48,720 bases of DNA, taken from Rhizobiaceae bacterium. Its GTDB lineage: Bacteria; Pseudomonadota; Alphaproteobacteria; Rhizobiales; Rhizobiaceae. The stretch spans positions 1 through 48,720 of the forward strand of contig JAHBYY010000032.1 of NCBI GenBank assembly GCA_019635715.1. The letters run 5' to 3'. Positions within the stretch are counted from its first letter, which is position 1; each line of letters starts with the position of its first letter. Below are positions 40,217-48,720 of the stretch, one piece after another. A program made the translations under genes and the position numbers. A model generated the notes under the pieces. The model had not been told where the DNA came from and did no database searches. It saw only the letters and a program-made list of their open reading frames with translations.

Positions 40217-41797
40217 TCACGTGAAGGCGTCGGGCATCGACGCCTTCTTCTGTGCGATGAAGGCCTTGAGCGCCTCGTCGATGGCCGGGTCGAGATAGGG
40301 AGCCTCGTAGCTGTCCAGCCAGCGCCGGGCCAGTTCGTTGGCGCGCTGCGGCGCGGTCTTCTCGCCCTCGGCCTGCCACTGTTCGAAGGAATTGTTGTCG
40401 GCGATCGTCGACCGGTAGAAGGCGGTCTGGAAGTTCGCCTGGGTGTGGTCGCACCCAAGAAAGTGCCGGTCGGTATCGCGCAGGCCGACCTGGCTGATCG
40501 CGTCCATCGCCTGGCCATTCTCGGAAAGATCGACGCCCTCGGCAAACTTCTGCTGCATGCCGAGCTGGTCGATGTCCATCATGAATTTCTCGTAGCAGGA
40601 GGCCAGGCCGCCCTCGAGCCAGCCGGCCGAATGGAGGACAAAATTGGTGCCGGCCAGGATCGTCGAGTTGAGCGTGTTGGCGCTCTCATAGGCCGCCTGC
40701 GCATCCGGAACCTTCGAGGCGCAAAGCGAGCCGCCGGTACGGAACGGCAGGCCGAGACGGCGCGCGAGCTGCGCCGCGCCATAGGAGACCAGCGACGGCT
40801 CCGGCGTGCCGAAGGTCGGCGCGCCGGACTGCATGGAGATCGACGAAGCGAAGGTGCCGAACAGCACCGGCGCGCCGGGCCGCACGAGCTGCGTGACCGC
40901 CGCGCCGGCGAGCACTTCGGCCAGCACCTGGGTCAGCGTGCCGGCGACGGTGACCGGGCTCATCGCACCCGCCAGGATGAACGGGGTGACGATGCAGGCC
41001 TGGTTGTTGCGGGCATAGACCTTGAGCGCGCCGAGCATCGTGTCGTCGAACACCATCGGCGAATTGGCGTTGATCAGGCTGGTCAGCACCGTGTTGTTCT
41101 GGATGAACTCCTCGCCGAACACGATCTTGGCCATGTCGACCGTGTCCTGGGCGCGCTCCGGCGCGGTGACCGAGCCCATGAACGGCTTGTCGGAGAATTT
41201 GATGTGGCTGTAGATCATGTCGAGGTGGCGCTTGTTCACCGGCACGTCGACCGGCTCGCACACCGTCCCGCCCGAATGGTGGATCGACGGCGCCATGTAG
41301 GCGAGTTTTACGAAATTGCGGAAATCCTCGATCGTCGCATAGCGGCGATTTCCCTCGAGGTCGCGCACGAAGGGCGGGCCGTAGACGGGCGCGAAGACCG
41401 TGCCCTTGCCGCCGATCTCGACGGAGCGGGCCGGGTTGCGCGCATGCTGCGTGTAGATCGACGGGGCGGTCTTGAGCAGCGACCGCGGCAGTCCGCGCGG
41501 AAAATGCACCCGCTCCCCCTTCACATCCGCCCCGGCGTTTTTCCAGAGCTCCAGGGCTTCCGGATCGTCGCGGAACAGGATGCCGACCTCTTCGAGCACG
41601 GTGTCGGCGTTGTTCTCGATGAGAGCGAGGCCTTCCTCGCTGAGCACCTCGTAGAGCGGGATCTTGCGCTTGATGTAGGTGAGCTGCGTTCCGGGGCCGC
41701 CGCCGGTGCGGGCCGCGCGCCGTGCCGCCGCGCCGCCGCTCGCTCCCCTGCCCCGCCGCCCGCCGGCTTCCGGCTCAACCGCCACGTCGTCGCTCAT
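40217..41797 (-). CDS. MttB-family (trimethylamine methyltransferase-like) protein 2, non-pyrrolysine
   Basis: The protein has 526 residues with the family landmarks LSEEGLALIENNADTVLEEVGI, YTQHARNPARSVEIGGKG, PFILAGAMSPVTVAGTLTQVLAEVLAG and VLHSAGWLEGGLASCYEKF. There is no internal stop, so no pyrrolysine. A Gly/Arg/Ala-rich basic tail (residues 12-36) precedes the barrel. It is divergent from the corrinoid protein gene with 257 bp between, the arrangement expected of a methyltransferase and its methyl carrier. The probable reaction is transfer of a methyl from a quaternary amine or related compound to Co(I). GGGAAG precedes the start. The substrate is unknown. Confidence 0.92.
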   Translation of the reverse strand: MSDDVAVEPEAGGRRGRGASGGAAARRAARTGGGPGTQLTYIKRKIPLYEVLSEEGLALIENNADTVLEEVGILFRDDPEALELWKNAGADVKGERVHFPRGLPRSLLKTAPSIYTQHARNPARSVEIGGKGTVFAPVYGPPFVRDLEGNRRYATIEDFRNFVKLAYMAPSIHHSGGTVCEPVDVPVNKRHLDMIYSHIKFSDKPFMGSVTAPERAQDTVDMAKIVFGEEFIQNNTVLTSLINANSPMVFDDTMLGALKVYARNNQACIVTPFILAGAMSPVTVAGTLTQVLAEVLAGAAVTQLVRPGAPVLFGTFASSISMQSGAPTFGTPEPSLVSYGAAQLARRLGLPFRTGGSLCASKVPDAQAAYESANTLNSTILAGTNFVLHSAGWLEGGLASCYEKFMMDIDQLGMQQKFAEGVDLSENGQAMDAISQVGLRDTDRHFLGCDHTQANFQTAFYRSTIADNNSFEQWQAEGEKTAPQRANELARRWLDSYEAPYLDPAIDEALKAFIAQKKASMPDAFT

Positions 41798-42054
41798 CGT
41801 CGTTCTTCCCTGAATAGGCTTTCGCCGCGTCCGGCGCGGCAACTGTCCTGATCGTAGCCGCCCCCCTTGCACGAAACGGCCCGGCAGCGCCAAGCCCTGT
41901 CGCAAAACAACAAAGCGGCAACTGGCTCTGAACTGCCGCGAGAAGAATAGTCGTTTTTCATGCTCCTCAGGTCGCAATTCGGCCTTACCTGTCGTAACAA
42001 GCACCGGCTACAAGTAGCTTCCGCTCAACCCTGCCCAAGCCTCCAGAGAGCCAC

Positions 42055-42753
42055 ATGTCCGACGACGAGATCATTCTGTCCGAACTGTCCGACGACGAAC
42101 TCGTGCAGCAGATGCACGACGATCTGTATGACGGGCTGAAGGAGGAGATCGAGGAAGGCACCAACATCCTTCTGGAGCGCGGCTGGGCGCCCTACAAGGT
42201 TCTGACCGAGGCGCTCGTCGAAGGCATGCGCATCGTCGGCGAGGATTTCCGCGACGGCATCCTCTTCGTTCCGGAAGTGCTTCTGTCGGCCAATGCGATG
42301 AAGGCCGGCATGCACATCCTGCGTCCGCTGCTCGCCGCCACCGGCGCGCCGAAGCAGGGCAAGATGGTGATCGGCACGGTCAAGGGCGACATCCACGACA
42401 TCGGCAAGAACCTTGTCGGCATGATGATGGAAGGCGCCGGTTTCGACGTGGTCGACCTCGGCATCAACAATCCGGTCGAGAAATACCTCGCCGCGATCGA
42501 GGAGCACCAGCCCGACATCATCGGCATGTCGGCGCTGCTCACCACCACCATGCCCTATATGAAGGTGGTCATCGACACGATGAAGGAGAAGGGCATCCGC
42601 GACGACTTCATCGTGCTGGTCGGCGGCGCGCCGCTCAACGAGGAATTCGGCAAGGCCGTCGGCGCCGACGCCTATTGCCGCGATGCGGCGGTGGCGGTCG
42701 AGACCGCCAAGGAACTGGTCAAGCGCAAGCACAACAGCCGCGCTTCCGCCTGA
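42055..42753 (+). CDS. corrinoid (methyl-carrier) protein of the MtbC/MttC type
   Basis: The protein has 232 residues: an N-terminal helical cap domain (about 1-100; EGMRIVGEDFRDGILFVPEVLLSANAMKAGM) and a Rossmann-like cobalamin domain with the DxHxxG motif as Asp112, His114 and Gly117 (GDIHDIGKNL), where His114 is the lower cobalt ligand, then SALLTTTM and VGGAPLNEEFGKAVGADAY. It shuttles methyl between an MttB enzyme and a methyl acceptor, in this setting probably THF. It is divergent from MttB 2 and ends with a strong terminator. It is the only corrinoid carrier in the window. Confidence 0.95.
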   Translation: MSDDEIILSELSDDELVQQMHDDLYDGLKEEIEEGTNILLERGWAPYKVLTEALVEGMRIVGEDFRDGILFVPEVLLSANAMKAGMHILRPLLAATGAPKQGKMVIGTVKGDIHDIGKNLVGMMMEGAGFDVVDLGINNPVEKYLAAIEEHQPDIIGMSALLTTTMPYMKVVIDTMKEKGIRDDFIVLVGGAPLNEEFGKAVGADAYCRDAAVAVETAKELVKRKHNSRASA

Positions 42754-42777
42754 GGGCACGGGCTGAAGCCGAACATG

Positions 42778-42804
42778 AAAAAGCCCCGCCAAGCGGGGCT
42801 TTTT
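42778..42804. terminator. strong rho-independent terminator, bidirectional
   Basis: AAAAAGCCCCGC (42778-42789), loop CAA, then GCGGGGCTTTTT (42793-42804). The perfect GC stem has A and T runs on both sides, so it can end transcription from the corrinoid gene and from the convergent entericidin gene. Confidence 0.95.
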
Positions 42805-47879: not shown

Positions 47880-47902
47880 TGACCAACGTCGCGCCCCTTC
47901 GC

Positions 47903-48096
47903 GCGCCCCTCTGTCCTGCCGGACATCTCCCCCACAAGGGGGGAGATTGGATGTCATGTATGGTTTCGCCACTCTTCAACGCTGCAAGAAGGGCGACGTC
48001 ACCGGAACTGCCGATCTCCCCCCATGTGGGGGGTCCGAAGGACGGGCCGAGACCAGCGGCTCGGGCCAGGGCGTCCGGCAGGACAGAGGGGGGCGC
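47903..48096. repeat. MITE-like palindromic element between metV and metF
   Basis: Terminal inverted repeats of about 22 bp: GCGCCCCTCTGTCCTGCCGG... (47903-47924) and its near-exact reverse complement ...CCGGCAGGACAGAGGGGGGC (48073-48096). Between them are two hairpin cores with runs of C and G (ATCTCCCCCACAAGGGGGGA and CTCCCCCCATGTGGGGGG). No coding capacity was found. The structure is that of a non-autonomous element. It splits the metV/metF operon. Confidence 0.75.
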
Positions 48097-48129
48097 CGTC
48101 GAGCGCCTGCCGTTCCGGAAAGGTCGGTC

Positions 48130-48720
48130 ATGATCCCGCCGCGCATCCCGCAGCTCGACGAGAATCCGGCCGGCCTGCATCTGCCGCTGGAACCGCTGCC
48201 CGGCCACACCTCGCTCGGCCGCCTCGAGCGTGTGCTGCGGCGCGGCGAATTCGCCGTCACAACCGAGCTCAATCCACCCGACAGCGCCGATCCCGAGGAT
48301 GTCTACAACCGGGCAAAGATCTTCGACGGCTGGGTCGACGGGATCAACGCCGTCGATGCCTCCGGTGCCAACTGCCACATGTCGTCGGTCGGCATCTGCG
48401 CGCTGCTGACGCGCATGGGCTATGCGCCGATCATGCAGATCGCCTGCCGCGACAAGAACCGCATCGCCATCCAGGGCGACGTGCTCGGCGCCGCCGCCAT
48501 GGGGGTTGCCAACATCCTGTGCCTCACCGGCGACGGCGTACAAGCCGGTGACCAGCCGGGCGCCAAGCCGGTCTTCGACCTCGATTCGATGTCGCTGCTC
48601 GAAACCGTGCGCATCATGCGCGACAACGGCAAGTTCCTGTCGGGCCGCAAGCTGACCACGCCGCCGAAGCTGTTCCTTGGCGCGGCGGTCAATCCGTTCG
48701 CCCCGCCCTACGATTTCCGT
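48130..48720 (+). CDS. metF: methylenetetrahydrofolate reductase, first 197 residues (cut by window edge)
   Basis: This FAD enzyme interconverts methylene-THF and methyl-THF. The visible part starts MIPPRIPQLDENPAGLHLPL and shows LRRGEFAVTTELNPPDSADPEDVYNRAKIF, INAVDASGANCHMSS and ANILCLTGDGVQAGDQPGAKPVFDLDS, all family motifs of the barrel. About 100-150 residues should lie past the window edge. It follows metV, from which it is separated only by the palindromic element. Together with MttB and the corrinoid carrier it would carry methyl groups into the C1 pool. Confidence 0.93.
   Translation, partial: MIPPRIPQLDENPAGLHLPLEPLPGHTSLGRLERVLRRGEFAVTTELNPPDSADPEDVYNRAKIFDGWVDGINAVDASGANCHMSSVGICALLTRMGYAPIMQIACRDKNRIAIQGDVLGAAAMGVANILCLTGDGVQAGDQPGAKPVFDLDSMSLLETVRIMRDNGKFLSGRKLTTPPKLFLGAAVNPFAPPYDFR

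Follow-up and report, generated by a model that had tools for sequence, protein, structure and literature searches.

The window analysed here, the entire 48720-base contig C78 of a draft rhizobial genome (4.57 Mb in 151 contigs, 85% complete), ends in a gene cluster that very probably encodes the Mtg system of aerobic bacteria, a corrinoid-dependent methyltransferase system that would include a glycine betaine route and a module for reactivating the corrinoid protein. The cluster is a member of a known system, already published and not new. The new element is PF13769, a family annotated as 'virulence factor' in relatives, which is an almost perfect marker of MttB-type B12-dependent systems among the Alphaproteobacteria sampled. 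We suggest that PF13769 is a so far undescribed component at the core of the aerobic system and acts with the RamA-type activase and DUF1638 to reactivate the corrinoid carrier MtgC, probably as a docking adaptor, a proposal for which we regard the chances as evenly balanced.

The tightness of the association is seen in a class sample of 289 genomes evenly drawn from Alphaproteobacteria, in which PF13769 (62 carriers), DUF1638 (62), MttB (66), the RACo C-terminal domain (70) and MetV (24, a 25th genome below the cut-off having been dropped) were tallied. MttB is present in 62 of the 62 PF13769 genomes (Fisher p 7e-59, a value that treats genomes as independent, which related genomes are not), and only four MttB genomes, G062, G209, G236 and G244, are without PF13769. 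The carriers span 34 families, with one genome (G006) resting on fragments; 59 of them also have DUF1638 and 61 a RamA-type protein, while MetV is optional (22 of 62). The initial annotation had proposed to judge its reading of the cluster by the co-occurrence of these families across alphaproteobacteria, and by that measure the outcome is strongly positive. Its description of PF13769 as a helper family that merely rides along does not survive, given the presence of MttB in every carrier and a fusion to a RamA-type protein in one species. A role as a virulence factor in this setting was also considered and rejected, since in the class sample only MttB genomes carry the family.

In a phylum sample of 179 genomes there are 18 carriers of PF13769 (6 of them also in the class sample), 19 of MttB and 30 of DUF1638. 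All 18 PF13769 genomes have both MttB and DUF1638, whereas 12 DUF1638 genomes have neither of the other two; thus PF13769 tracks MttB more tightly than DUF1638 does, and DUF1638 has a second setting. These 12 genomes are G295, G301, G307, G311, G317, G323, G324, G343, G350, G371, G376 and G378, and the DUF1638 matches in G311, G317 and G350 are weak, partial and in long open reading frames (ORFs). The PF13769 domain also matches in Bacillus subtilis, so the family has other settings outside the phylum.

Gene order gives a second line of evidence. In 41 of the 59 class genomes that have both, DUF1638 comes first and PF13769 next on the same strand, the two domain matches being less than 200 bases apart; in the other 18, PF13769 lies at most 4 kb from DUF1638 in two, the window included, and elsewhere or on another contig in 16. 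We read the loci, mostly as 16-kb stretches, for 60 of the 62 class carriers (the window and G006 were left out), and in 56 of the 60 PF13769 is accompanied by one or more other genes of the set; three of the remaining four end within 1.1 kb of it on one side. MtgD and DUF1638 are each found in 44 of these loci, RamA in 41, MtgC in 40, MttB in 23 and MetV in 17. The set is fuller in the best 80 of 592 named loci, all picked for PF13769 and drawn from mutually related Rhizobiaceae and relatives: MtgD in 79, RamA, MtgC and DUF1638 in 77 each, MttB in 75, MetV and MetF in 65 each, a GlxA-type regulator in 48 and Bmt in 22.

A fusion bears on the role of the family. The 760-residue 'virulence factor' of Terrarubrum flagellatum carries PF13769 at residues 8-92 and, after it, Fer2 and the full set of three RACo domains, and lies on a plasmid stretch in the order corrinoid protein, DUF1638, fusion; it is a single case. 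In G045, G149 and G230, PF13769 stands directly before RamA (-6 to 53 nt), and together the fusion and these RamA-adjacent loci place PF13769 with the reactivation proteins. In G260 (locus L245) PF13769 shares one ORF with DUF1638, possibly through a deletion or an assembly artefact. Because the DUF1638 part is shortened there, covering profile positions 1-123 of 161, we base the fusion argument on Terrarubrum. The window PF13769 protein has no cysteine and the family no invariant one, which makes a redox role unlikely. Across 22 diverse sequences, conservation is highest in YWRDIPAQ, close to the N-terminus, and the invariant residues include W9, R10, D11, P13, Q15, R32, F33 and D38. We propose that PF13769 would be an adaptor docking RamA on MtgC and not an electron carrier. 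A sequence search of the PDB gave a best E of 0.2, to anti-CRISPR chains, which we take as chance, and among viral contigs 48 stretches fitted a pattern for the family and 0 proved to be relatives.

Several observations weigh against this reading of PF13769. The gene directly 3' of it (within 200 nt on the same strand) in the 60 class loci is MetV in 11, MtgD in 10, MetF in 4 and RamA in 3, and 32 loci have no set gene in that position. G236 and G244 have MttB, DUF1638 and a RamA-type protein yet no PF13769, so the family is not universally needed. The AlphaFold2 model of the protein (pLDDT 76, moderate) has no Foldseek match in the PDB, the best E being 0.6. These counts of next genes, with MtgD in 10 and RamA in 3 of 60, lower the probability of a reactivation role somewhat; PF13769 might instead belong to the system as a partner of MtgD or of MetV/MetF, outside reactivation, which we rate as a minority possibility of real weight. 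Such a partnership fits less easily with the 40 genomes in which PF13769 persists without MetV, with the position of DUF1638, a reactivation protein, directly before PF13769 in 40 of the 60 loci, and with the only full-length fusion found, which is to a RamA-type protein.

The genes between PF13769 and MtgD vary. In the 27 class loci with MtgD and without MetV, MtgD begins within 100 nt of PF13769 in 10, and in 14 about 0.9-1.9 kb, enough to fit one gene, separate the two. Of four intervening genes examined in Pfam, two match MTHFR weakly, one strongly (L249, with a gap of 3.3 kb) and one not at all; the two weak matches resemble MetF-like proteins that have diverged, about 310 residues long. 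There appear to be two cassettes for methyl-tetrahydrofolate, either MetV with MetF or a lone divergent MetF-like protein of that size, which the MTHFR model barely sees or misses, and 10 class loci have neither between PF13769 and MtgD.

The window cluster itself is well defined. MttB, the corrinoid protein, DUF1638, PF13769, MetV and MetF, all placed at 40217-48720 by the initial annotation, are found by Pfam on the strands it had assigned (Table 1), and chance matches are no concern, because even the weakest core match, that of the truncated MetF, is at 1.6e-11. After the divergent MttB2 gene the plus strand carries, in order, the corrinoid protein, DUF1638, DUF4893, ExoD, formyl transferase, fatty-acid desaturase, PF13769, MetV and the start of MetF. 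The landmarks noted at the outset also hold: the DxHxxG motif of the corrinoid protein is DIHDIG at residue 112 of MtgC, MetV has eight cysteines within residues 114-159, and MttB2, with 526 codons, contains 0 TAG, 0 TAA and one TGA, its stop. A start for MttB2 at GTG 42004 had been proposed; the start is most likely at 41797 instead, since the 524-residue orthologue of Sinorhizobium meliloti begins at the matching place. A pyrrolysine-containing trimethylamine methyltransferase MttB was ruled out, with 0 TAG codons and a TIGR02369 score of 271 bits against a cut-off of 525.

Table 1. Features of the window and of the contig that continues the cluster.
Feature	Position	Strand	Basis
MttB1, second MttB paralogue, 41-42% identical to MttB2	17213..18889	+	PF06253 2.3e-202
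DAO + GCV_T enzyme beside MttB1	19446..22100	+	Pfam
Bmt / MtgE, betaine-homocysteine S-methyltransferase	27455..28462	+	PF02574 2.6e-64; PRK07534 549 bits, cut-off 338
MttB2, non-pyrrolysine MttB-superfamily methyltransferase, probable MtgB	40217..41797	-	PF06253 (MTTB) 1.7e-230
Intergenic stretch separating the divergently transcribed MttB2 and MtgC, presumed promoter	41798..42054	.	gene coordinates
MtgC, corrinoid carrier (B12-binding cap + domain)	42055..42753	+	PF02310, PF02607
DUF1638, helper of B12 reactivation	43008..43652	+	PF07796 3.1e-21
Four inserted genes: DUF4893, ExoD, formyl transferase, fatty-acid desaturase	43684..46819	+	Pfam
PF13769 protein, 100 residues, 'virulence factor' in relatives	46943..47245	+	PF13769 1.4e-25
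MetV, MetF partner, overlaps end of PF13769 gene	47238..47879	+	PF12225 2.1e-27
MetF N-terminal part, cut by contig end	48130..48720	+	MTHFR 1.6e-11; start codon 48130 inferred from ORF counting
MetF C-terminal part on contig C94	L013:10507-10950	-	matches S. meliloti MetF 218-344, 76% identity

The cluster continues on contig C94, whose end, in the orientation that continues the operon, holds the C-terminus of MetF, a PF00809 protein and a RamA-type activase, with a LysR regulator on the opposite strand and a GlxA-type regulator (DJ-1_PfpI + HTH_18) as further genes. The window piece of MetF corresponds to residues 4-191 of the 363-residue S. meliloti MetF (89% identity), and about 26 residues are lost at the break; the ends of C78 and C94 have no exact overlap. 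Adjoining the C-terminal part of MetF is MtgD, the 355-residue PF00809 protein (PRK07535, 392 bits against a cut-off of 259), and the activase is a 702-residue protein with Fer2 and RACo domains. The genome has three PF00809 matches, one on C141 (249 bits), presumed to be FolP, one in MetH, and the one near the C94 end. Of the four PF02310 matches in the draft genome, the window MtgC is the sole standalone one, the others lying in frames of 732, 1139 and 1283 residues. The combination that marks an Mtg system is therefore found in one genome: a PF06253 enzyme, a standalone PF02310/PF02607 corrinoid protein and a PF00809 methyltransferase, together with a RamA-type activase, DUF1638 and, allowing for the split between C78 and C94, MetF near mtgD. 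To the genes listed by the initial annotation this adds MtgD and RamA, which lie on C94 outside the stretch it covered, and Bmt within the window. The best 80 PF13769 matches among named genomes are from Mesorhizobium, other Rhizobiaceae and relatives at 70-87% protein identity, with which the rhizobial assignment fits, and the host is probably aerobic, as judged from its relatives.

DUF1638 and PF13769 are separated in the window by the four inserted genes. In DUF1638 the cysteines C24, C47, C85 and C108 are invariant across 49 sequences and might, at a guess, suit metal or cluster binding. A sequence search of the PDB found no relative of DUF1638 up to E 1. The alignments behind the DUF1638 and PF13769 models, of 55 and 49 rows, came from the window and related loci only and are of limited depth. 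The DUF1638 model (pLDDT 91) gave a best E of 2.2e-3 in Foldseek against the PDB, with nothing at 0.001 or better, and the top query-normalised TM-score among the 50 matches listed was 0.49, for a glutamate racemase at rank 44. Of the inserted genes, the formyl transferase (PF00551, 45068-45850) has a match in 42 of the 80 named loci, mostly between DUF1638 and PF13769, and may belong to the one-carbon pathway. A fatty-acid desaturase, which lies at 45899-46819 in the window cluster, is also encoded in Terrarubrum (L224:7589-8545), divergent from the corrinoid gene, the place that MttB takes in the window. At 38408-40093 on the plus strand is an ORF with glycine- and aspartate-rich repeats, by eye of the calcium-binding RTX type; a 'calcium-binding protein' is annotated near the S. 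meliloti cluster as well.

Genetic data on relatives of this system are available. Ruegeria pomeroyi needs the corrinoid protein MtgC and the PF00809 protein MtgD for both glycine betaine use and methionine synthesis, and its mtgC and mtgD mutants fail to grow on glycine betaine and are methionine auxotrophs; on N-osmolytes, two PF06253 proteins, MetF2, RamA and DUF1638 rise, as the article's text describes (Mausz et al., PNAS September 2025, PMC12478193). In Phaeobacter inhibens, a split methionine synthase needs DUF1638 and a RamA-like protein, mutants in either being rescued by methionine, and the presence of these two is nearly identical across 158 alphaproteobacterial genomes according to the text of that study (Price et al. 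2018, PMC5764234). The need for MtgC, MtgD, a RamA-like protein and DUF1638 has thus been shown in one or other of these organisms (PMC12478193, PMC5764234).

From the protein families and the R. pomeroyi work we infer the following path. A quaternary ammonium compound, most likely glycine betaine, would donate a methyl group, which MttB2 (MtgB) would transfer to Co(I) of MtgC; MtgD would pass it from MtgC to tetrahydrofolate (THF); and MetF with MetV would convert methyl-THF to methylene-THF for one-carbon oxidation or biosynthesis. The leftover dimethylglycine would go to dimethylglycine-dehydrogenase-type (DMGDH-type) and sarcosine-oxidase-type enzymes, and occasional oxidation to Co(II) would be reversed by the ATP-driven RamA-type activase, DUF1638 and, in our proposal, PF13769. 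The route from an onium compound via cobalt to THF and oxidation by MetF/MetV, as first proposed for this cluster, is indicated by the gene content and by the R. pomeroyi genetics (main text of PMC12478193). If it does act in reactivation, PF13769 would be one part that lets oxygen-sensitive methyltransferases run in aerobes, and a third partner makes the aerobic maintenance of Co(I) and the function of DUF1638 testable.

The substrate assignment depends on MttB2. It shares 80% identity with its syntenic counterpart in S. meliloti, which aligns over its full length with PDB entry 4yyc, with no difference seen by eye; that entry is titled just putative trimethylamine methyltransferase. After 4yyc the closest solved relatives of MttB2 are 2qne (418 bits) and 9yce (416 bits), the latter named glycine betaine methyltransferase, and MttB2 therefore likely acts on glycine betaine as far as relatedness can tell. 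The genome, however, holds five MttB paralogues of 24-49% mutual identity, and the same corrinoid system might serve MttB2 on another onium compound (proline betaine, carnitine, choline, dimethylsulfoniopropionate (DMSP) or similar) with MttB1 as the glycine betaine enzyme, an alternative we hold to be somewhat unlikely. MttB1 is the copy that adjoins the DAO-GCV_T enzyme and a further DAO enzyme, and in Eubacterium a single corrinoid protein serves paralogues that differ in substrate specificity (as stated in the text of PMC12478193). Against this, MttB2 tops the five copies in the comparison with 9yce (416 bits, then C97 359, MttB1 326, C66 313 and C101 213) and is the copy divergent from mtgC. 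The DAO-GCV_T enzyme reaches no NCBIfam model at its cut-off and is probably of the dimethylglycine/sarcosine dehydrogenase type, to go by its domain make-up.

The other three paralogues are on separate contigs. The C97 copy (L015:8064-9617), 48% identical to MttB2, has as neighbours two FadH/OYE-type oxidoreductases, an oligopeptide-type ABC binding protein and, by eye, a LysR-like ORF, and is a candidate for another betaine, e.g. proline betaine. The C66 copy (L014:7165-8931) lies near sarcosine-oxidase alpha- and beta-like proteins (below the NCBIfam cut-offs), an amidohydrolase and a hydantoinase/carbamoylase-family amidase, which suggests an N-methylated hydantoin- or creatine-like substrate. 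The fifth copy, on C101 (L016:7796-9493), is very divergent, about 27% identical to MttB2, and has no obvious catabolic neighbours in surroundings covered by two NCBIfam queries; copies scoring as low (334-388 bits) recur in relatives.

For the assignment to the Mtg system as a whole there are likewise points on the other side. The NCBIfam cut-offs for MtgC and for trimethylamine methyltransferase are unreached, the best match of the window MtgC being MtgC_2 at 215.6 bits against a cut-off of 370. As the text of PMC12478193 has it, genomes carry up to seven MttB-type ORFs, and mutants are reported for mtgC and mtgD only. The genome also has a complete canonical MetH with the activation domain PF02965, on C24, so a split methionine synthase, for which MetH would be expected to be absent, is not required here.

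Other uses of the same genes are less probable. Bmt might carry out a direct, B12-free methyl transfer from betaine to homocysteine, leaving the corrinoid cluster for other methyl donors, as would agree with the P. inhibens Bmt, which is reported to form methionine from DMSP and betaine with no need for THF or cobalamin (text of PMC12366255); this is improbable, in that R. pomeroyi mtgC mutants fail to use glycine betaine even when methionine is added, and an S. meliloti bmt mutant supplied with methionine grows on glycine betaine (taken up in the text of PMC12478193). That methionine synthesis by a split MetH (MtgC, MtgD and Bmt) is the main role and betaine demethylation secondary seems very doubtful: Bmt is in the window and methionine synthesis in both P. 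inhibens and R. pomeroyi requires MtgC and MtgD (PMC5764234 and PMC12478193, in the text sections on these mutants), but MetH has its own activation domain, and the presence of MttB, MetV and MetF in the cluster speaks for catabolism. The Mtg system with a glycine betaine route is the reading we retain.

The gene order of the S. meliloti strain Ak57 offers the closest comparison: Bmt, then MttB divergent from the corrinoid protein, DUF1638, formyl transferase, 'virulence factor' (PF13769), MetV, MetF, MtgD, RamA, LysR and GlxA. The core genes keep the window's order and the inserted genes differ. Azoarcus KH32C also has the core genes in the window's order, with no MttB annotated in the stretch; as flanking genes it has glycine-betaine transporter genes, a GlxA-type regulator and purU. 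GbdR is a regulator of the GlxA type, and the transporter genes of Azoarcus and the GlxA-type regulator fit with glycine betaine as the substrate. The pair in which a MetV with conserved cysteines adjoins MetF is familiar from the MetVF of acetogens, and the window likewise has a cysteine-motif MetV adjoining MetF; its pair, however, is presumed to be oxidative. The Desulfitobacterium hafniense MtgABC system is alike in its use of a corrinoid protein and a THF methyltransferase and in that 2qne, called MtgB (text of PMC9842639), is the relative of MttB2 at 418 bits. D. hafniense, however, is an anaerobe, and the aerobic MtgC is placed on a separate branch (text of PMC12478193).

P. inhibens shares MtgC, MtgD, Bmt, a RamA-like protein and DUF1638 of the same families, with methionine as the tested output (PMC5764234, in the text describing its mutants), whereas here a catabolic use is suggested by MttB, MetV and MetF, and the genome has MetH. 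R. pomeroyi shares an MttB-type enzyme, the corrinoid carrier, the PF00809 methyltransferase, MetF, RamA, DUF1638 and Bmt/MtgE; its genes are scattered, whereas those of the window are clustered, as in S. meliloti, where MtgBCDE, two reactivation modules and a cobalamin operon are co-located, and the co-presence of MetH in Hyphomicrobiales, seen again in this genome, is noted in the same text (PMC12478193). The main text of that article contains neither 'virulence factor' nor MetV (0 occurrences each), and the open-licence literature searched neither names PF13769 nor, as far as we found, ties a 'virulence factor' to a corrinoid/DUF1638 system. The mechanism proposed by the initial annotation was thus largely right, for a system that had already been published, including the co-located cluster of S. 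meliloti. The window extends this system, described in 2025, to a further rhizobium-like genome, in which the core genes are present and the contig break is the sole split.

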